The notes below the pieces were generated by a model. It was not told the origin of the DNA. It saw nothing but the letters and a program-made list of their open reading frames with translations, and ran no database searches. Both the position numbers and the translations under genes were made by a program. Shown in pieces: positions 7,209 to 57,189 of a stretch of DNA of 64,000 nt (within the stretch, counting starts at the first letter, position 1; each line of letters begins with the position of its first letter). This stretch comes from Bacilli bacterium (GTDB taxonomy: Bacteria > Bacillota_I > Bacilli_A > RFN20 > CAG-826), in assembly GCA_017470115.1 (NCBI GenBank), contig JAFUEZ010000003.1, positions 237,064 through 301,063 of the forward strand, in the 5' to 3' direction.

Positions 7209-7670
7209 ATGTTTATTCATGCGACAGAAGTTAAGTTTTTAGAAGGCGTAGAAGTTGAAGTTAGTTTTCAAGATGGGAAAGTAATTAGATATAACATGTC
7301 TAAAATGTTTTTAAAATACCCTCAACTTAAAAAATTAAAAGAAGATAGAACTCTATTTTTAAGAGGCCACTTAGATTCGTTAGGAAACGGGATTATTTGG
7401 AATGATGAACTTGATTTTGATTGCATGAGTATTTATGAAAACGGTGAAGTAATCGGAAGTTTTGAAACATCATTGAACCAAAAAATTGCAACGCTTCTTA
7501 TCAAAACAAGAGATAAAAAACATATAACTCAAAAAGAACTTGCAAGGCTTTCTCATATTGATCAAGGCGATATTTCAAAAATAGAAAAAGGCGTTGGCAA
7601 TCCAACATTTTCTAAAGTAGAAAAATTATTTAATGCTCTAGGAGTCAAATTGAACGTGACAGTAAAATAA
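7209..7670 (+). CDS. DUF2442 protein with C-terminal XRE helix-turn-helix
   Basis: 153 residues. The N-terminal half (about 1-80) looks like DUF2442 (VEVSFQDGKVIRYNMSKMF, then LGNGIIWNDELDFDC). The C-terminal half (about 95-150) is an XRE/Cro helix-turn-helix (KHITQKELARLSHIDQGDIS with KIEKGVGNPTF). This two-domain form is usual for the partner of DUF4160. It probably binds DNA and regulates its own operon. A GAAAGG site lies 13 nt upstream. Its partner gene just upstream is broken, so it may be an orphan regulator or antitoxin. Confidence 0.8.
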   Translation: MFIHATEVKFLEGVEVEVSFQDGKVIRYNMSKMFLKYPQLKKLKEDRTLFLRGHLDSLGNGIIWNDELDFDCMSIYENGEVIGSFETSLNQKIATLLIKTRDKKHITQKELARLSHIDQGDISKIEKGVGNPTFSKVEKLFNALGVKLNVTVK

Positions 7671-34956: not shown

Positions 34957-34994
34957 TAAAAAAACAAAATAATTATTTTTAGGTGGAGGTCATT

Positions 34995-37553
34995 ATGATC
35001 AAAATTCGTAAATTTACAGTCGAATATTTAGAGAATAATTGTGTTACAGATAATAAAAAGCCAAGATTTTCATATGTTTTAGAATGTGATGAAAATGGGA
35101 TTGAGCTTGAAAGCGTCTGTGTCTCGTGTAATGGATGGGAATGTGAAGCAAAAGATTCACGAATAATTACTTATGAAGGTGAGGCTTTAAAACCATTTAC
35201 AAAATATGAAGCTCAAGTAAAAGTTTTAACTAAAAACGGTGAAGAAGCCAACGCTAAAGTCGAATTCGAAACTGGTTTTTTAGATGAAAAATGGGTTGCA
35301 GAATGGATTTCAAATCCAGAATATCAATTTGTTGAAAAGAAAGTTTCCCCAGTTCCTATGGTTTTCAAAAAAACTTTCTCATTTGATAAAAAAGTAAAAG
35401 AAGCAAAACTATTTATTACAGCAATGGGCATTTATGATGTTTATGTAAATAGAAAATTAGCTATTAATCGCTATTTTGCTCCAGGTTTTACTTCATATAA
35501 AACAAACTTACAATATCAAACTATAAATGTTACTGATTTATTGGAAGATAATAATGAAATTTTAGTCCCTGTAGCAGGTGGTTGGGCTGTTGGTTCATTT
35601 ATTTTTACACGTGGAAATAGAAATGCAGCTGATAGACAAGCACTTTTAGCTGAACTTCATGTTGAATTTGAAGACGGAAGTAAAGAGATTATTAAAACTG
35701 ATTCAAGCTGGCAAGTTACGATGGATGGACCAGATAGAGAAGCAGATTTCTATGATGGTGAAACATTTGATGCTCGTATTAATATTGATGAATCAAAATT
35801 TGTTAATGCAGCCAAAGAAACCTTAAAAATTAATCCAAGTTTATATGCTGAAATGGGTTCCCCTGTCATTGAACACGAAACAATGAAATATGTTTCTAAA
35901 AACAAATTAGAAAATGGGAAAATTGTTTATGATTTTGGTCAAAACTTTGCAGGTTTGGTTATTTTAAAGATTAAAGGTGCAAAAGAAGGCCAAAAAGTTG
36001 TTTTAAGACATGGTGAAGTTTTACTTCCAAACGGAGATGTAAACTCAGCGATTTTAAGAAGTGCAAAACAAATGATTACTTATATATGTAAGGAAGGAGA
36101 TCAACAATTTAAACCTAGATTTACATATATGGGCTTTAGATATGTCTCTGTTGAAGGCATTGAAGAAGAAAACGTTGACCTTGAAGCAGTTGTAATTTAT
36201 TCAGATATTGAAATAATTGGTGATTTTGAATGTTCGAATCCAATGTTAAATAGATTACATCAAAATATTATGTGGTCAGCTAAATCGAATTTTGTTGAAA
36301 TTCCTACAGATTGTCCTCAAAGAGATGAAAGAATGGGTTGGACAGGAGATATTTCAATATTCTCGCAAACCGCTAACTTTAATTTTGACATGACACGTTT
36401 CTTAGAGAAATGGTTAAAAGATGTCCAAGCTGAACAACTTAAAACTGGTGGTTTACCAAACACAGTTCCTGCAAACGGATATGGTTTCCCAGCAACAATG
36501 CCTGCAATGGCAATTGATTTCTGGGGAGATGCAATCTTAAATGTTCCTTATCAATTATATATAAGGACAGGAGATATCTCTTTCTTAACAAATTATTATG
36601 AAAACATGCAACGTTATGTTAAAGCTTGTAAATTCTGGGCAGGATTATTAAGTTTTGGCAAAAACAAATATATCTGGCAAAACATTTCAACATTCCATTT
36701 TGGAGATTGGCTAACAACTGATATTCCTAAGATGGGTGCATGGCAAGCAAGACACAAATATACTGCAACCGCATCACTTAGATATACATCAAATCTTTTA
36801 GGTGATATTGCAAATATTTTAAATAAACCTGAAGAAGCAAAAGAATATAAAGAATATAGTGAAAAAGTTGCTGATGCTTACGTTTGGAAGTTTATGGAAG
36901 ATGGAAAACTTAAAGGAGAAGAGTTCCAAACAGGTTATGTCCTTCCAATTCAATTCAAGATGTTTGATGAAGAAACAAACAAAAAAGCAGTTAATAACTT
37001 AAAATCACTTGTTGAAAGAAGAGATTATTGTATTTCAACAGGTTTCCCAGGAACACCTTATATTCTTTACGCTTTAGCAGATAATGGTGAAGTAGAAACA
37101 GCTTATAAGATGCTTTTAAATACGAAATGTCCATCATGGCTTTATGAAGTTAGAGTTGGTGGAACAACCATTTGGGAAAGATGGGATGGTTTAGATGAAA
37201 ATGGTCAAGCAAATTTAGGTGATGATGGAACTCATGGTATGATTTCATTTAACCACTATGCTGCTGGATCTGTTGGCAATTTCTTATACACAAGACTTGT
37301 TGGTTTAGAACCAGTTGAAGCGGGTTATAAGAAATTTAGAGTTAAACCAGTTTTAACTCCAGAAATTAGTTACGCTAAAGCAAAAACATTATCATTATTT
37401 GGTGAAATAAAAGCTGGATGGCGTAAAGAAAATAATCAATTTATTGTTGATGTTGAAGTACCTATTGGAACAGAATGTGAAATCTATTTACCAAGTGGTA
37501 AAATTGAAGTTGTTCAAAACGGTAAACATACTTTAACTGAAAAAATGGACTAG
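34995..37553 (+). CDS. GH78 alpha-L-rhamnosidase
   Basis: 852 residues from ATG 34995 (GGTGGAGG just upstream; the GTG at 34983 is inside that site). It releases L-rhamnose from rhamnosides. The layout is that of GH78: N-terminal beta-sandwich domains (about 1-380; KIVYDFGQNFAG is typical), a catalytic (alpha/alpha)6 barrel (about 390-740) with TDCPQRDERMGWTGD carrying the acidic residues, and a C-terminal beta-sandwich. No signal peptide, so it is cytoplasmic and acts on imported rhamnosides. It is followed 8 bp later by rhamnose isomerase. Confidence 0.93.
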   Translation: MIKIRKFTVEYLENNCVTDNKKPRFSYVLECDENGIELESVCVSCNGWECEAKDSRIITYEGEALKPFTKYEAQVKVLTKNGEEANAKVEFETGFLDEKWVAEWISNPEYQFVEKKVSPVPMVFKKTFSFDKKVKEAKLFITAMGIYDVYVNRKLAINRYFAPGFTSYKTNLQYQTINVTDLLEDNNEILVPVAGGWAVGSFIFTRGNRNAADRQALLAELHVEFEDGSKEIIKTDSSWQVTMDGPDREADFYDGETFDARINIDESKFVNAAKETLKINPSLYAEMGSPVIEHETMKYVSKNKLENGKIVYDFGQNFAGLVILKIKGAKEGQKVVLRHGEVLLPNGDVNSAILRSAKQMITYICKEGDQQFKPRFTYMGFRYVSVEGIEEENVDLEAVVIYSDIEIIGDFECSNPMLNRLHQNIMWSAKSNFVEIPTDCPQRDERMGWTGDISIFSQTANFNFDMTRFLEKWLKDVQAEQLKTGGLPNTVPANGYGFPATMPAMAIDFWGDAILNVPYQLYIRTGDISFLTNYYENMQRYVKACKFWAGLLSFGKNKYIWQNISTFHFGDWLTTDIPKMGAWQARHKYTATASLRYTSNLLGDIANILNKPEEAKEYKEYSEKVADAYVWKFMEDGKLKGEEFQTGYVLPIQFKMFDEETNKKAVNNLKSLVERRDYCISTGFPGTPYILYALADNGEVETAYKMLLNTKCPSWLYEVRVGGTTIWERWDGLDENGQANLGDDGTHGMISFNHYAAGSVGNFLYTRLVGLEPVEAGYKKFRVKPVLTPEISYAKAKTLSLFGEIKAGWRKENNQFIVDVEVPIGTECEIYLPSGKIEVVQNGKHTLTEKMD

Positions 37554-37561
37554 GAGGAAAT

Positions 37562-38803
37562 ATGTCTAGATATCAAGAAGCAAAAGCTATTTATGCAAAA
37601 GTCGGAATCGACACAGATCAAGTAATTGCAAAAATGAAAGAGATTCCAATCTCAATTCATTGCTGGCAAGGCGATGATGTTATTGGTTTTGATGGTTCCG
37701 ATTCTTTAAGTGGAGGAATTCAAACTACCGGTAATTACCCTGGAAGAGCAAGAACTCCTGAAGAATTAATGGCTGATATTAAAAAAGCAGCAAGTTTAAT
37801 GCCAGGAAAGAAAAGACTTAATTTACACGCTTGTTATGCACTTTTAGGTGAAGATAAAGGAAAGGTTGATAGAGATCAATACACATATAAATATTTCGAA
37901 CCATGGATTAAATTTGCTAAAGAAAATGGATTCGATGGAGTTGATTTTAACCCTACATTCTTTGCTCATCCTAAAATGAAAGATGGATTATCACTTTCTT
38001 CTCCAGATGAAGCTACACGTAGATTCTGGATTGAACATGGTAAAAGATCACTTGAAATTGCAGCTGAAATTGGTAAAGCATTTGGCAATAAATGTTTCGT
38101 TAACATTTGGATTCCTGATGGAATGAAAGATATTCCTGCAGATAGACTTGGTCCACGTCTTAGATTAAGAGATTCAATTGATGAAATCTTAACTGTTTTA
38201 GATAAAGAACACGTTCAAGTCGCGGTTGAAAGTAAGGTTTTTGGAATTGGTGTAGAAAGTTATACTGTTGGAAGTGGCGATTTCTATATGAATTATGCTG
38301 CAACTCGTGGCATTTTCTGCCTTATTGATAATGGTCATTATCACCCAACTGAAAATGTTGCTGATAAATATTCATCACTTTTAGCTTTCTATGATAATAT
38401 TGCTGTTCACCTAACTAGATCAGTTAGATGGGATAGTGACCATATGGCTATTTTTGATGACACTATGAAAGATATTTGTGCTGAAATCGTAAAATATGGC
38501 ATGGTTGATAAATTTATTATTGCAACTGACTGGTTCGATGCCTCAATTAATAGAATCTTTGCTTGGGTAGGTGGAGTTAGAGCAATTCAAAAATCATTGA
38601 TGCTTGGACTTCTTACTCCTTGGAAAGAAATGATTGAAGCAGAAGAAAAAGGCGATTTCACAAAACGCTTATATTTAACTGAAAGAAATAAAATGCTTCC
38701 TATTGAAGATGTTTGGGAAGAATATTTGAGAAGCCAAAATTTAAGCGAAGAATTCTACGACGAAATCAAAGAATACGAAGATAAAGTTCTCTCATTAAGA
38801 TAA
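37562..38803 (+). CDS. rhaA: L-rhamnose isomerase
   Basis: 413 residues, E. coli RhaA type. It converts L-rhamnose to L-rhamnulose with Mn2+ in a TIM barrel. Conserved stretches: ISIHCWQGDDV, GGIQTTGNYPGRARTPEEL, GVDFNPTFFAHP, AVESKVFGIGVESY, IDNGHYHPTE and RSVRWDSDH, which include metal ligands. A GGAGGAAAT site is present. It is in an operon with the rhamnosidase, so rhamnose released from a glycoside is isomerised by the next gene product. Confidence 0.96.
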   Translation: MSRYQEAKAIYAKVGIDTDQVIAKMKEIPISIHCWQGDDVIGFDGSDSLSGGIQTTGNYPGRARTPEELMADIKKAASLMPGKKRLNLHACYALLGEDKGKVDRDQYTYKYFEPWIKFAKENGFDGVDFNPTFFAHPKMKDGLSLSSPDEATRRFWIEHGKRSLEIAAEIGKAFGNKCFVNIWIPDGMKDIPADRLGPRLRLRDSIDEILTVLDKEHVQVAVESKVFGIGVESYTVGSGDFYMNYAATRGIFCLIDNGHYHPTENVADKYSSLLAFYDNIAVHLTRSVRWDSDHMAIFDDTMKDICAEIVKYGMVDKFIIATDWFDASINRIFAWVGGVRAIQKSLMLGLLTPWKEMIEAEEKGDFTKRLYLTERNKMLPIEDVWEEYLRSQNLSEEFYDEIKEYEDKVLSLR

Positions 38804-38938: not shown

Positions 38939-40942
38939 ATGGCTGAAAAAGCAAAAAAAGGATTTTTTGAGACAAAATTAATGTCGACAAAAATCAAGAG
39001 CCAAACAGTCTCACTATTTCCTGAAGCAGCATTAGGTTATTTGCTTGGACCTATGCTTGCTTTAATGTCAAATGGCGTTGTTAATGGTTGGCTTGTCCAA
39101 TATTGGGACAAAGTTCTCGGCTTAGAAACTTGGGCAGCATTATTTGAAACAATCCTTCCAATTGTCTCCGCAATTATTATCGTTATCGGTAACTTAGTTG
39201 TTGGAAGATTGATGGAAAGAAAACCAAGTTTAGCCGGTAAGGCAAGACCACTCTTATTGATTGGTATGCCAATCGTTGCTATTGCTTTATTAGCATTATT
39301 CTTAGTGCCTTTCCCAGAAGCAGCTCGTGAAGTTCCAGAAGCAGGAGCTCAAGATAATGGCATTTTAGCATTAGCATTCGTTACAATTGGTTACAATTTA
39401 TACTACGCAATCGCATGGCCAATTTATTACACATCACACTCAGCACTTGTTGGTTTATCAACACGTGACAGTGGAAAACGTGGTTTACTTGGAACAGCTG
39501 TTATGGGTGCTCAATTAGCAGCCGCAGGTATTTCAGGTATGGCTGGTGGATTTCTTGTCGACTTATTAAAATTATTACCTGTTTATAAATATTCAGATGC
39601 GTTCTATGAAGCAAACAAAGAAAGTCTTAAATTAGCAGCACAAGTTACAAATAGTTTAAGTGAAGCACAACGTGATACTAACTATATAATTGAAGTTAGC
39701 CGTCAACAAGCAAATGAAAAATGGACTATTTTAATGATCGTTATGATCGGTGCTTTATTCCTTGGCGCTTTAATGGAATACTTCTTCACACGTGAAAGAA
39801 TTACTGAAGAAAACGTTAAATTTGAACGTTCACTTGGTGAAAAACAAGGTGAAGATAAGAAAGTTAAAAAAGGCTCAATGAAAGAGCAAATTTCCGTTTG
39901 TGTTAAAGATAAATACTGGTGGTTCATCATGATCTTCTGGTTCTTATATCAATTTGGTGGAATGATGAAGAATAATGGCATGTCATTCTACTCACAAGCA
40001 TTAACCGGAGAAAACGCACTTTCATCATTAATTAATACAGTTGGTGCAATTCCAACAGCAGTTGGTATGGCACTTGTCTGGCCAATTGCAATTAAATTCA
40101 CAAAAGCAAAATCAATTTCATTTGGTGGTATTCTTGCCGCTCTTGCAGCATCAGCAGCATTCTCATCATTAGCATTTATTGGAAATATTCCAGTTATCTC
40201 AACAATTTCTGTCGCTTCATTTGTTGTTAAAGCATTAGGCACAGCACCTGCAATGTATGTTTCAATGGCATTAATGGCAAACGTTCTTGATCACCAAGAA
40301 GCAGTTTATGGAATTAGAACTGATGGATTCTCAATGGCAGTTTATGGATCAATCATGGTCGCTATGGCAGGTGTCTGTAACGGTATCATCGTTGGTTTAA
40401 ATAATATCCCTGGCGTTGACAAAGCATTCTTAAATACATTCCTTGCTTATGGTGTTGAAGGTATTTGTTACTTAGCAATCGCTATTATGTTCTTATTCTT
40501 GAATGTTGAAAAATTCACAAGAGTTGACAACAAAGCAATCGTTGCTGATCATAAAGCTAAAGTTTTAGCAGAAGGTGGCGAATGGGTCGAACCTGAAGAA
40601 GCAACAAGACGTGAAGAAGAAGAAAATGCTCGTTTAGTTGAAGAAGCAAGAGTTGAACAATTAAAACTTGATTGTGAAAAGAAACATCTTAATTTCGAAG
40701 AAGAAAATGCTAAATATTTAGAAAAGAAAGCTGCAGCTGATAAAGCAGCAGCCGAAAAGAAAGCAGCTGCAGAAGCTGCAAAACAAGCAAAATATGACGC
40801 ATTAACTCAAGAACAAAAAGACGCAATTGAACAAAAGAAAGCTGCTAAGAAAGCTAAAGAAGATGCTGAAGATGAAAAAGCATTAGTCGAACTCAATAAA
40901 GCAAGAGAAGCTTTCAATAGACAAGCTGTTGTACTCGAATAA
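38939..40942 (+). CDS. GPH-type MFS transporter with long coiled-coil tail (probable rhamnose/rhamnoside uptake)
   Basis: 667 residues. The first about 530 form roughly 12 membrane helices in MFS/GPH arrangement; the N-terminus resembles GPH sugar symporters. Residues about 545-667 are a highly charged, Glu/Lys/Ala-rich coiled coil (DKAAAEKKAAAEAAKQAKYD), much longer than the usual tail and probably cytoplasmic. Position inside the rhamnose locus, behind a promoter with a related upstream site, points to rhamnose or a rhamnoside as cargo. An AGGAGG site is present. Bidirectional terminator after the gene. Confidence 0.85.
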   Translation: MAEKAKKGFFETKLMSTKIKSQTVSLFPEAALGYLLGPMLALMSNGVVNGWLVQYWDKVLGLETWAALFETILPIVSAIIIVIGNLVVGRLMERKPSLAGKARPLLLIGMPIVAIALLALFLVPFPEAAREVPEAGAQDNGILALAFVTIGYNLYYAIAWPIYYTSHSALVGLSTRDSGKRGLLGTAVMGAQLAAAGISGMAGGFLVDLLKLLPVYKYSDAFYEANKESLKLAAQVTNSLSEAQRDTNYIIEVSRQQANEKWTILMIVMIGALFLGALMEYFFTRERITEENVKFERSLGEKQGEDKKVKKGSMKEQISVCVKDKYWWFIMIFWFLYQFGGMMKNNGMSFYSQALTGENALSSLINTVGAIPTAVGMALVWPIAIKFTKAKSISFGGILAALAASAAFSSLAFIGNIPVISTISVASFVVKALGTAPAMYVSMALMANVLDHQEAVYGIRTDGFSMAVYGSIMVAMAGVCNGIIVGLNNIPGVDKAFLNTFLAYGVEGICYLAIAIMFLFLNVEKFTRVDNKAIVADHKAKVLAEGGEWVEPEEATRREEEENARLVEEARVEQLKLDCEKKHLNFEEENAKYLEKKAAADKAAAEKKAAAEAAKQAKYDALTQEQKDAIEQKKAAKKAKEDAEDEKALVELNKAREAFNRQAVVLE

Positions 40943-41009: not shown

Positions 41010-41771
41010 TTAGTGAATCACTGTTATATTAAATTTATCGAGTTTTGCTTGTTCAGTTTCGTTAAATTTAAATGGTGTAATTAAAACATCAATATCACTT
41101 AATGTTGTTGATCTATAAAGAATTTTCTTTCCGTATTTTGATTCATCAGCTAAAACAATTGCTTTATCACTATTTGCACACATTGTCTTTTTTATTTCTG
41201 CTGAATCGATTGTAGATTCAGAAAAACCATAATCTAAATCAAAGCCTCCACAAGAAATTAATGCGAGATCTGCATGGAAATTTCTAATATCAGAGATTGC
41301 TTTAGGCCCTAAAATTGAATTTGTATTGGCTTGAACTTGGCCTCCACAAAGCATTAAATTACATGATGTATGAGCAATGATTTCGTTAGCAATGAATAAA
41401 CCATTTGTAATAATTGTTACGTTTTTAAAACTATTAAGGAAAGGAACAATGTGAAGAAGTGTTGTTGAAGAATCGATAAATACTGAAATGTTGTCATGTA
41501 AGAAAGTGACAGCTTTTTGACAAAGGGATCTTTTTTCAACAACATTAATCTTTTCTCTTAATTCAAATGCTGACTCTCTATTAGTTGGATTTGGATTTAA
41601 CATAACAGCACCAAAAGTTCTTGTAATTAAACCTTTTTGCTCCATTTTCGTTAAATCTCTTCTTACTGTCGCAGCCGATGCATAGAGCTGATCAGAAAGC
41701 TCATATACGCTATGAGATTTATTATCTTTTAAAATATCTAGAATTTTTCTTTGTCTTTCAATATCATACAT
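41010..41771 (-). CDS. DeoR-family regulator of the rhamnose locus
   Basis: 253 residues from the ATG at 41771. Upstream ATGs at 41783 and 41804 are in frame, but MYDIERQRKILDIL is the usual DeoR start and AAGGATGG lies about 12 nt before it. The N-terminal HTH (about 5-55) reads VYELSDQLYASAATVRRDLT; the C-terminal sugar-phosphate sensor domain includes IDSSTTLLHIVPFL, the LCGGQV strand and a VLADESKYGK motif. Family members sense sugar phosphates such as rhamnulose-1-phosphate. Divergent from rhaBD with about 120 bp between, which contains dyads that could be its operators. Confidence 0.88.
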   Translation of the reverse strand: MYDIERQRKILDILKDNKSHSVYELSDQLYASAATVRRDLTKMEQKGLITRTFGAVMLNPNPTNRESAFELREKINVVEKRSLCQKAVTFLHDNISVFIDSSTTLLHIVPFLNSFKNVTIITNGLFIANEIIAHTSCNLMLCGGQVQANTNSILGPKAISDIRNFHADLALISCGGFDLDYGFSESTIDSAEIKKTMCANSDKAIVLADESKYGKKILYRSTTLSDIDVLITPFKFNETEQAKLDKFNITVIH

Positions 41772-41828
41772 ACATTTGTCCATCCTTGATTGAATATGAA
41801 ACATTTTAGCATTTAGAATTACTAAATA

Positions 41829-41875
41829 TCAATATTTAATCAAAGTTTTGAGTAAATTATACTAAATAGTATAAT
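41829..41875 (+). promoter_or_regulatory. Promoter, upstream site and operator of rhaBD
   Basis: TCAATATTTAATCA (41829-41842), 5 nt, TTGAGT (41848-41853), 16 nt, TATAAT (41870-41875). Over the -10 lies TTATACT-AAAT-AGTATAA (41857-41874), a perfect 7-bp dyad typical of a repressor site. Confidence 0.65.
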
Positions 41876-41893
41876 TTTAAAGGATATGCGTTT

Positions 41894-44188
41894 ATGTCAA
41901 AAGTTTTAAGTATAGATATAGGAGCAAGCTCAGGACGATTTATAGTTCTCAGTTATGAAAATGGTTTATTCTCATCTAAAGAGATTTATAGATTTTCTAA
42001 TGGAATGAAAACTATAAAAGGTCATTTGAGATGGGATATTGATAAGATTTTTGAAAACATTTTAGAAGGTTTAAAAATTACCTTAACTACATATAAAGAC
42101 ATCTCATCTATTGGTATCGACACTTGGGGAGTTGATTATGGATTGATTGATGATAATGGCAAGTTAATCGATCTTCCAATTGGCTATAGAGACGAAAGAA
42201 ATAAATTAGCCGCTAGAGAGCTTTTAAGCAAAATTAATTACCAACAAATATATGAAGAAAGTGGCATTCAATATTTAGATTTTAATACTATTTTCCAATT
42301 ATATAGTGATATAAAAAGTGGGATTAAATTCGAAACTTTCTTGTTAATTCCTGATTTGCTCGTTTATCTTTTAACAGGTGAAAGACGTACAGAAATTACT
42401 AATTTTTCAACAACTGGATTATATAATCCAACTACGAGAAAGGTCTCAAAGAAACTGCTTGATTTAATTGGCTTAGATGAAAGTAAAATTTCTCCATTTG
42501 TCTATCCATCTGAAAGAATTGGAGTTTTAAAAGACTCCATTGTTAAAGAACTTGGAATTTATCCAGTTGATGTTGTTTCTGTTGGAAGTCACGATACAGC
42601 AAGCTGCGTAGCTAGTGTTAAATTAAAAGAAAATTCTGCTTATATTTCGAGTGGTACATGGTCTTTATTAGGGATTGAACTCGATGAGCCAAATAAAAGC
42701 GTTGAAGCCTTTAAAGCAAATTTAACTAACGAAATTGGTGTTGAACATAAAGTGAGATTCCTCAAAAACATCATGGGTATGTTTATTGTTCAAGAATTGA
42801 AAAAAGATTTTGAAGTATTGCATCCAAATTTAAGTTTCCAAGATCTTCAAGATGAAGCAGCGACTGTGACTAATAATGAAATATATGTAGATATTAATAA
42901 TGATTTATTTTCAAAGCCTGGTGACATGCAAAAGAAATATTATGAATATCTTGTAAAAACTAGACAATATAAAAATACTCTTACAAATGGTGAAATAATT
43001 AGGTCAATTTATGAATCAATGGCCTTTAAATATAGAGAAGAATTTGAAAGATTAAAAGCCGTATCTAAAAAAGATTTAAACGAAATCATCGTTATTGGTG
43101 GTGGCAAAAACGCAAAACTTTTGAATCAGATTATAGCTGATACGCTTGATATAAAAGTTAAAACAGGATTAGGTGAAGCTACGATTTATGGTAATGCACT
43201 TGCTCAATTCATCTATTTAAAAGAATTTAAAAATTTAGATGAAGCTAGACAAAAACTTGCATTATCTTATGAGGAAGAGGAATTTCTCCCACAAAATGTT
43301 GGAATTTACGAACAAAAATACTCAAGATATAGAAATTTAATAGAAAGTAGAGGGTTCAATATGAGAGTGTTAGAAGCAAAATTTGTTAAACAATTTATTA
43401 AATTGTGCGATGAAGGATGGAAGAAAGGTTGGCACGAAAGAAACGGAGGAAATCTTTCTTATAGAATGACTGAAGAAGAAGCTAATTCTATAAAAGAAAA
43501 CTTTGTTGAATCAAAATGGCAAGATATTGGAACTGAGGTTCCTGAACTTGCAAACGAATACTTCTTAGTTACTGGAAGTGGTCGTTATATGATGAACGTT
43601 AAGGAATATCCAGAGTCAAATATTTGTATCATTAAAGTCGATAGAACAGGAACTAAATTCATGATTCTTTGGGGTTTAGTTGATGGGGGAAGACCAACAA
43701 GCGAACTCCCAAGTCATTTAATGAATCTTGAAGTTGTGAAAAAGAGAACAAATGGAAAATATAGAGTTGTCTATCATTGCCATGCAACAAACATCATTGC
43801 CCTTACTTTTGTTTTACCTCTTAGTAATGAAGTATTTACACGTGAATTATGGGAAATGGCAACAGAGTGTCCTGTAGTATTCCCTTCAGGAGTTGGTGTT
43901 GTTCCATGGATGGTTCCAGGCGGAAAAGATATTGCAATCGCAACATCTAAATTGATGGAAAAATATGATTTAGCAATTTGGGCACATCATGGAATTTTTG
44001 GAACAGGCGAAGACTTTGAATCAACATTTGGACTTGTTGATACAGTCGAAAAGAGTGCTGAAATTTTAGTTAAAGTATTATCAATGACTCACGAAAAACG
44101 TCAAACAATTACACGTCAAAACTTTGAAGATTTAGCCGCTGATTTTAAAGTCACACTTGATCCTGAAACTTTAAAGATTTGTAAATAA
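41894..44188 (+). CDS. Rhamnulokinase / rhamnulose-1-phosphate aldolase fusion
   Basis: 764 residues in one uninterrupted frame. Residues 1-480 are RhaB: DIGASSGRF, SIGIDTWGVDYGLIDDNG, GSHDTASCVAS and a late VIGGGKNAKLLNQIIAD. Residues 490-764 are RhaD (275 residues, as the stand-alone enzyme): MRVLEAKFVKQFI, ERNGGNLSYRM, zinc histidines in YHCHATN and WAHHGIFG, and a C-terminal domain with no gaps. The product would phosphorylate L-rhamnulose and split rhamnulose-1-phosphate to DHAP and L-lactaldehyde. M490 has AGAGGG 8 nt upstream, so a separate RhaD may also be made. AAAGGA precedes the first ATG. Confidence 0.9.
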   Translation: MSKVLSIDIGASSGRFIVLSYENGLFSSKEIYRFSNGMKTIKGHLRWDIDKIFENILEGLKITLTTYKDISSIGIDTWGVDYGLIDDNGKLIDLPIGYRDERNKLAARELLSKINYQQIYEESGIQYLDFNTIFQLYSDIKSGIKFETFLLIPDLLVYLLTGERRTEITNFSTTGLYNPTTRKVSKKLLDLIGLDESKISPFVYPSERIGVLKDSIVKELGIYPVDVVSVGSHDTASCVASVKLKENSAYISSGTWSLLGIELDEPNKSVEAFKANLTNEIGVEHKVRFLKNIMGMFIVQELKKDFEVLHPNLSFQDLQDEAATVTNNEIYVDINNDLFSKPGDMQKKYYEYLVKTRQYKNTLTNGEIIRSIYESMAFKYREEFERLKAVSKKDLNEIIVIGGGKNAKLLNQIIADTLDIKVKTGLGEATIYGNALAQFIYLKEFKNLDEARQKLALSYEEEEFLPQNVGIYEQKYSRYRNLIESRGFNMRVLEAKFVKQFIKLCDEGWKKGWHERNGGNLSYRMTEEEANSIKENFVESKWQDIGTEVPELANEYFLVTGSGRYMMNVKEYPESNICIIKVDRTGTKFMILWGLVDGGRPTSELPSHLMNLEVVKKRTNGKYRVVYHCHATNIIALTFVLPLSNEVFTRELWEMATECPVVFPSGVGVVPWMVPGGKDIAIATSKLMEKYDLAIWAHHGIFGTGEDFESTFGLVDTVEKSAEILVKVLSMTHEKRQTITRQNFEDLAADFKVTLDPETLKICK

Positions 44189-44204
44189 TTTATGTTTTTA
44201 AAAT

Positions 44205-44233
44205 AAAAGGCATGTTCTTTGAACATGCTTTTT
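44205..44233 (+). terminator. rhaBD terminator
   Basis: GCATGTTC (44210-44217), TTT, GAACATGC (44221-44228), then TTTTT. Confidence 0.85.
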
Positions 44234-44289
44234 ATGTACTTTTATTGATTTAATTAATTTTTCTAGTAAAATCTTATTTAGGTAAAGTT

Positions 44290-56577: not shown

Positions 56578-57189
56578 ATGAAAACTAAAAATAGAAATAA
56601 GAAATTATTTTTATTAAGTTTAGTTTCATTATTCGTGTTAACTTCTTGCGACACTGATAAGTTTGGAGATGATCTCGCATCGACTATTGAATCTAAATTG
56701 ATCCCAAATCTATGGGCGTTTTTGGTTCAATTCATCGCTTTGCTTGTAATGCTCTTTATCGTTGTTAAGTTTGCTTATAAACCTGTTTCAAAATATTTAA
56801 AAGCTAGACGTGAAACTTTGAAAAACGAAGTTGACGATACTTTTAAGAAAAATGAAGAGGCTAAAGTAAATCTTGAAAAATCTGAAGCTCAACTTGCTGA
56901 TACACGTCGACAAGCAGACGTCATTTTAAACGAGGCTACTTTAGAAGCAAATAAAACACGTAATGAAATACTTGAGCAAGCAAATCAAGAAGCTTTAGAA
57001 ACAAGGAACAAAGCTCTTGATGATATCGAAAGAGCAAAAGCAAAAGCTACTCGAGAAGTTAGAAATGAGATTGTTGATGTTGCTCTTGACGCAACAGGAA
57101 AACTTTTAGAGCGTGAAGTTAATACAAAAGACAATACGAAAATAGTTGATGATTTTATTAAAGGTTTAGAGGAAGAATCGGATAAGTAA
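56578..57189 (+). CDS. atpF: F0 ATP synthase subunit b, lipoprotein form
   Basis: 203 residues. N-terminal signal ending in lipobox FVLTSC with C24, then a second membrane helix (about 43-66) and a long charged coiled coil (about 70-185) typical of subunit b. The extra N-terminal lipidated segment is known from mycoplasmas. It anchors the peripheral stalk to F0. It begins 6 bp after atpE without a good Shine-Dalgarno site. Confidence 0.93.
   Translation: MKTKNRNKKLFLLSLVSLFVLTSCDTDKFGDDLASTIESKLIPNLWAFLVQFIALLVMLFIVVKFAYKPVSKYLKARRETLKNEVDDTFKKNEEAKVNLEKSEAQLADTRRQADVILNEATLEANKTRNEILEQANQEALETRNKALDDIERAKAKATREVRNEIVDVALDATGKLLEREVNTKDNTKIVDDFIKGLEEESDK

Follow-up and report, generated by a model that had tools for sequence, protein, structure and literature searches.

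In the window, by which we mean the whole stretch of 64,000 nucleotides analysed, the genes for rhamnulokinase (RhaB) and rhamnulose-1-phosphate aldolase (RhaD) are fused into a single open reading frame (Table 1). The frame is free of stops over 764 codons and holds both proteins complete, RhaB from residue 1 to about 485 and RhaD from residue 490 to 764. Pfam recognises FGGY_N, FGGY_C and Aldolase_II domains in the product, with the kinase amino-terminal and the aldolase carboxy-terminal, and no dehydrogenase domain among its matches. The start codon follows a good Shine-Dalgarno sequence, AAAGGA. The original prediction of RhaB joined in frame to full-length RhaD is thus borne out by the uninterrupted frame and by the NCBIfam and Pfam domains.

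Table 1. Features of the fused gene and its surroundings (positions in the window; L032 is a record of the fused locus of G148, a second species of the genus).
Feature	Position	Strand	Basis
alpha-L-rhamnosidase	34983..37553	+	Bac_rhamnosid domains
L-rhamnose isomerase RhaA	37562..38803	+	PF06134; NF002203 567.5 bits, just below cut-off 572
GPH-family sugar transporter	38939..40942	+	MFS_2; TIGR00792 60 bits, far below cut-off
divergent DeoR-family regulator	41010..41804	-	Pfam DeoRC, HTH_DeoR; divergent beside rhaB in G148, G156 and G153 too
probable promoter TTGAGT-16-TATAAT of fused gene	41848..41875	+	promoter scan; overlaps palindrome also in L032
perfect 11-bp inverted repeat over -10 box	41854..41877	.	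probable DeoR operator (putative role); similar element at L032 912-936
fused rhaB-rhaD gene	41894..44188	+	764 codons + stop; uninterrupted ORF; NCBIfam and Pfam domains; gapless counterpart in G148
rhamnulokinase half, RhaB, residues 1 to ~485	41894..43348	+	TIGR02627 404 bits; structure matches; dN/dS 0.15; last part a predicted helix, 469-485
internal Shine-Dalgarno-like AGAGGG	43349..43354	+	ATG 43361 follows after six bases; similar sites in L032, L011
rhamnulose-1-phosphate aldolase half, RhaD, residues 490-764	43361..44188	+	NF002963; 47% identity to E. coli RhaD; dN/dS 0.07
intrinsic terminator-like stem	44203..44235	+	directly 3' of fused gene; 15-pair stem + T tail

Judging from its context, the GPH-family transporter upstream probably serves the uptake of rhamnose or rhamnosides. 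It carries a charged carboxy-terminal tail of about 150–170 residues, rich in Lys, Glu and Ala, the domain ending at residue 493 of 667. The promoter scan gives 17 matches in the region against 17.2 in shuffled sequences, so the probable promoter of the fused gene rests mainly on its overlap with the inverted repeat; terminator-like sites number 5, against 1.1 in shuffles. Flanked by a promoter-like site on its 5' side and, immediately 3' of it, by a terminator-like stem, the fused gene appears to be transcribed as a separate unit. A second inverted repeat (41786-41843; TTGATTGAATAT / ATATTTAATCAA) spans the start of the regulator gene, has a counterpart in L032 and is possibly another operator. 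The genome, an assembly of 23 contigs estimated to be 96% complete, encodes elsewhere a lactaldehyde reductase (577.3 bits, cut-off 523.15). No second RhaD was found in it, the sole other match to the fused protein being a kinase-like stretch with 26% identity.

In the kinase half, residues 6–457 score 404 bits with the NCBIfam rhamnulokinase model TIGR02627, against 165 bits with the fuculokinase model, and lie below the curated TIGR02627 cut-off of 527.95 bits. The half is 32% identical to E. coli RhaB (2cgj), with a Foldseek TMt of 0.93, and 39% identical to the nearest solved kinase by sequence, the fuculose kinase 4c23. Because the cut-off is missed and that nearest kinase acts on fuculose, the substrate has been assigned partly from the nearby RhaD, RhaA and rhamnosidase. 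RhaB is thus the best-supported name for a divergent sequence, resting also on gene context, rather than a strict equivalog call. The HDTAS motif starting at residue 233 is kept here and in the kinase of G148; the aspartate of this region is, we assume, the catalytic one of rhamnulokinase.

The aldolase half is named by the NCBIfam rhamnulose-1-phosphate aldolase model NF002963 (residues 491–760, 336.3 bits, above the cut-off of 170), while its 332.8 bits with TIGR02624 fall below the cut-off of 400.95. It shares 47% identity with E. coli RhaD and superimposes with a Foldseek TMt of 0.96. Glu604, His628, His630 and His699 of the fused protein align with Glu117, His141, His143 and His212 of E. 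coli RhaD, of which we take the histidines to be the zinc ligands and Glu117 the catalytic glutamate. A monomer model of the fused protein, calculated with an alignment of 50 sequences, has a mean pLDDT of 92.9 and a pTM of 0.73; a weak block, with a mean of 70, covers residues 481–490, around the linker that follows the carboxy-terminal kinase helix (469–485). Both domains of this model match their solved relatives in Foldseek, i.e., the rhamnulose kinase and the aldolase of E. coli.

A fused gene is also present in G148, a genome from another species in the genus. It too encodes 764 residues and aligns without gaps at 80% identity, and its downstream neighbours are like those in the window. 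At the amino-acid level, the aldolases are 91% identical, the kinases (codons 1–470) 74% and the linkers, of 19 codons, 53%. With dN/dS values of 0.15 for the kinase and 0.07 for the aldolase, both halves are under purifying selection; in the linker, synonymous sites are saturated. The prediction that the fusion joins consecutive steps of one pathway is supported by the domains, the retained residues that we take to be catalytic and this purifying selection. In G148, a TATAAT box lies some ten bases ahead of the start of the fused gene (L032 920-950), which has no Shine-Dalgarno core; its mRNA is possibly leaderless.

The proposal to look for the same fusion in other genomes was followed up, and a third fused gene was found in G185. 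With the window protein as query, a stop-free match over both domains occurs in 3 of the 279 genomes of the order (G000, G148 and G185); among the matches listed, a fourth over both domains, in G009, is interrupted by two stops. Searching with the G185 protein (E up to 1e-80) leads to the same three genomes. No further fusion was seen at E up to 1e-90 in samples drawn from the class (395 genomes), the phylum (392) and the phylum to which G746 belongs (398), which partly overlap one another. At most three candidates per genome were scored in the searches of the order and at most two in these samples; fusions too distant for the E thresholds used would escape them. The scan of the genome collection covers the best 80 of at least 560 confirmed stretches, among at least 592 candidates. 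An open reading frame scan of 112 records revealed fused frames in five, representing three distinct genes. Of 131 matching plasmid records, ten were listed, nine of them annotated with separate rhaB, rhaA and rhaD genes and the tenth unannotated.

Unfused neighbours are more numerous: in 17 of the 20 distinct loci examined, rhaB and rhaD lie next to each other as separate genes, at most 165 nt apart, against three in which they are fused. These 17 are a non-random sample, in which two loci (L037 and L043) share one RhaD; 14 of them share one frame, which is not evidence, most having come from a search that ranked in-frame pairs first. In L041, a Sharpea record (7340-7370), and also in L035, L044 and L049, the adjacent genes are near-fusions, in one frame with an in-frame stop between them. 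G444, with an in-frame TAG between rhaB and rhaD, has the same coordinates and score as L041. Other apparent fusions, including one of 809 residues in G746, were rejected: the open-frame length reads through stops, and the translation of L037 has three stops between the genes.

The layouts of relatives suggest how the window fusion may have come about. In many, among them G153 of the window's genus, the order is rhaB-rhaA-rhaD, which puts rhaD some 1.2 kb or more from rhaB. G156, of the same genus and unfused, has rhaA beside a rhamnosidase gene, a divergent DeoR regulator, and rhaB with rhaD right after it, the rhaB-rhaD junction being a TAA, one base and an ATG. The window has this layout with a transporter added and with rhaB and rhaD fused, so the touching genes of G156 are a plausible precursor state. 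Compared with the window RhaA, that of G156 scores 636.6 bits, and those of the genus mates G153 and G150, encoded between rhaB and rhaD, score 429.9 and 404.9 bits; RhaA proteins scoring close to the window type are also found in other genomes of the order. In several genus mates, the RhaA encoded between the two other genes is of another type than that of the window (37562-38803), which suggests gene replacement. Thus replacement of rhaA, rather than its relocation, may have left rhaB and rhaD side by side. At the junction, the fused genes align with eight bases more than G156 and no stop. A single-base insertion was considered as the cause of the fusion and rejected given this net difference of 8 nt, G156 being a relative and not an ancestor.

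Quick trees, with SH-aLRT support only, were calculated from 104 RhaD and 100 RhaB sequences. In both, G185 groups apart from the window and G148, and the three fused genes need two state changes, two being forced by the starred branches. Both trees reject a clade uniting all three fusions, and with it a single origin (p-AU 9.5e-6 for RhaD and 7.8e-4 for RhaB, again from quick trees). By these trees, there have been at least two independent fusion events among related bacteria of the same order. Grouping the window, G148 and G156 together is not rejected in either tree; the trees held to this group outscored the free ones in both, so the quick search fell short of the best tree. By path length, RhaB of the window and G148 is marginally nearer to that of G232–G234, where rhaA separates the genes, than to that of G156. 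For G185, the nearest RhaD is that of G009 and G011, where rhaB and rhaD adjoin with gaps of 45 and 62 nt, and the nearest RhaB that of G005, whose rhaB and rhaD are 1212 nt apart; with different nearest relatives for its two halves, a touching precursor is not seen for this fusion. Beside the G185 fusion, an isomerase-like protein is encoded (L136 3738-5159) that is not RhaA by the models used and may replace it; it has weak similarity to sulfoquinovose (48.7 bits) and L-arabinose (42.6 bits) isomerases.

The fused gene contains a possible second translation start at Met490. The AGAGGG sequence upstream of it (43349-43354) ends six bases before the ATG at 43361, rather than 8 nt as had been stated. 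Among 97 unfused rhaD genes, 88 have an ATG exactly at the position of Met490, and in 96 a start codon lies no more than four codons away from it; 92 of those 96 starts are preceded by a Shine-Dalgarno core at least four bases long. The corresponding sites are AGAGGG-6-ATG in the window, GAGGA-6-ATG in G148 (L032) and AGGAGGA-6-ATG in G185. Their duplexes with an assumed anti-Shine-Dalgarno sequence (no 16S tail that could confirm it was found in the loci covered) have energies of −6.3, −5.9 and −10.2 kcal/mol, respectively. Duplexes as strong precede 5.4%, 6.7% and 0.07% of 1516 in-frame internal ATGs, and 49%, 54% and 19% of 223 first ATGs; all of this background comes from one genome, that of the window (the window itself and 16 stretches of 20 kb, with mechanical reading frame calls), and is approximate for the other two genes. 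The sites of the window and G148 are thus of moderate strength, that of G185 is near-consensus, and the window site taken alone is only moderately above chance. Within the window gene, Met566 and Met567 have stronger duplexes than Met490, so duplex energy alone fails to single out Met490; the position of their core is not good. The RNA structure at the internal start is unremarkable, with 34%, 20% and 35% of 1183 internal ATGs being as weakly structured as in the three fusions. Since the fusions of the window and G148 share descent, the retained site amounts to two observations and not three.

It is quite probable, in our view, that the gene encodes a bifunctional kinase-aldolase for two consecutive steps of L-rhamnose breakdown, arisen from near-touching rhaB and rhaD genes and with the start site of rhaD retained. 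In the course of events that we infer from the sequences, the amino-terminal FGGY kinase would phosphorylate L-rhamnulose and the carboxy-terminal class II aldolase would split rhamnulose-1-phosphate into dihydroxyacetone phosphate and L-lactaldehyde. In the ancestor, rhaA had probably ceased to separate rhaB from rhaD, so that the two genes almost touched; short indels would then have removed the rhaB stop and brought both genes into one frame, while rhaD kept its ATG and ribosome-binding site, now inside the fused gene. E. coli RhaD is a homotetramer, and the fused aldolase would presumably still form one, with up to four kinases attached. Initiation at Met490 part of the time, to which we give slightly less than an even chance, would supply free RhaD that mixes into the tetramer. 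The benefit of the fusion is likely to be fixed co-expression, or none, rather than channelling.

A trivial explanation would be a sequencing or assembly error that removed the stop between two ordinary genes. The fragmentation of the window genome into 23 contigs would allow for this, but the separately assembled G148, from another species, has the same gapless frame, making such an error very unlikely; G185, moreover, has another fusion. The fusion being real, its stop codon loss may have been nearly neutral, producing a pair of tethered enzymes that work no faster for it, and the fusion would persist as harmless in a small genome. We consider the chances of this evenly balanced. Few genomes carry a fusion (3 of the 279 in the order, with either query), a genus relative, G156, has rhaB and rhaD touching, and 17 distinct adjacent loci are still unfused; so many unfused pairs within 165 nt count against a strong advantage of fusion. 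However, the fusion has been kept since the split of two species whose kinase and aldolase halves are now 74% and 91% identical, and it arose twice. Substrate channelling, raised in the original prediction, in which the tether would hold rhamnulose-1-phosphate near the aldolase, could account for the joining of consecutive steps in two independent fusions. It gains no support from this analysis: adjacent unfused pairs outnumber fusions by 17 to 3 in the loci examined and the monomer model, with its pTM of 0.73, says little on domain placement; we regard it as improbable.

Closer to call is the suggestion, made in the original prediction, that one gene gives two products, with internal initiation at Met490 yielding free RhaD beside the fusion and the tetramer carrying fewer than four kinases. 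It gains from the comparison with stand-alone genes, Met490 being the ordinary rhaD start (an ATG in 88 of 97), and from the presence of a Shine-Dalgarno-like site in all three fusions; only 0.07% of the 1516 internal ATGs match the AGGAGGA duplex of G185. Free RhaD is plausible, because the site is rightly placed and present in both fusion origins. The fused gene also stands alone before a terminator-like stem, in a genome where no other RhaD was found. Against this, the sites of the window and G148 reach only the 5.4% and 6.7% levels, the local RNA structure is unremarkable, and the site may be a leftover. On balance, two products seem a little less probable than one. That the arrangement exists by design, one gene giving fusion and free aldolase that assemble together, with internal initiation deciding how many kinases the mixed tetramers carry, and that this evolved twice independently in the order, we think rather doubtful.

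Returning to the bifunctional kinase-aldolase, its halves belong by sequence and fold to the same families as RhaB and RhaD of the E. coli rhaBAD operon (2cgj, 1gt7), and their pathway neighbours are the same. In E. coli these are two separate proteins, whereas the window encodes one polypeptide, with no rhaA in between. The rhaB-rhaD fusion is a rare new combination of known enzymes. We found no report of it in the open-access literature, a scope that excludes most subscription journals, and the accessible parts of PMC3245297, PMC7478625 and PMC8600716 do not mention one. The nearest described case, going by the accessible part of PMC3870299, is RhaEW, a bifunctional aldolase/lactaldehyde dehydrogenase with an amino-terminal RhaE aldolase and a short-chain dehydrogenase. 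Here too, consecutive steps of rhamnose catabolism are fused and a class II aldolase is included, but RhaE is amino-terminal and joined to the following step, while in the window RhaD is carboxy-terminal and joined to the kinase of the preceding step (PMC3870299).

Two products from one gene by way of an in-frame internal start are described for phage endolysins, where the accessible text of PMC9430671 reports experimental proof of full-length and carboxy-terminal products able to co-assemble, and for archaeal Cas11b, in the part of PMC11899642 available. The window differs from the endolysins in presenting only the start site, and in a metabolic gene fusion. As a natural fusion with two origins and a touching-gene relative in the genus, it allows the separate, touching and fused stages to be compared. 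It also offers a simple case for the fate of a ribosome-binding site swallowed by a fusion, and one for whether a kinase tethered to a tetrameric aldolase alters flux.

Away from the rhamnose genes, the window encodes at 56578-57189 a protein like ATP synthase subunit b, named by eye and from its position in an ATP synthase cluster, beginning with a lipoprotein-type signal, SLFVLTSC. Such a signal on subunit b is a feature of mycoplasmas. The subunit b-like protein of G148 (L137 1485-2099) has a similar lipoprotein-type start.
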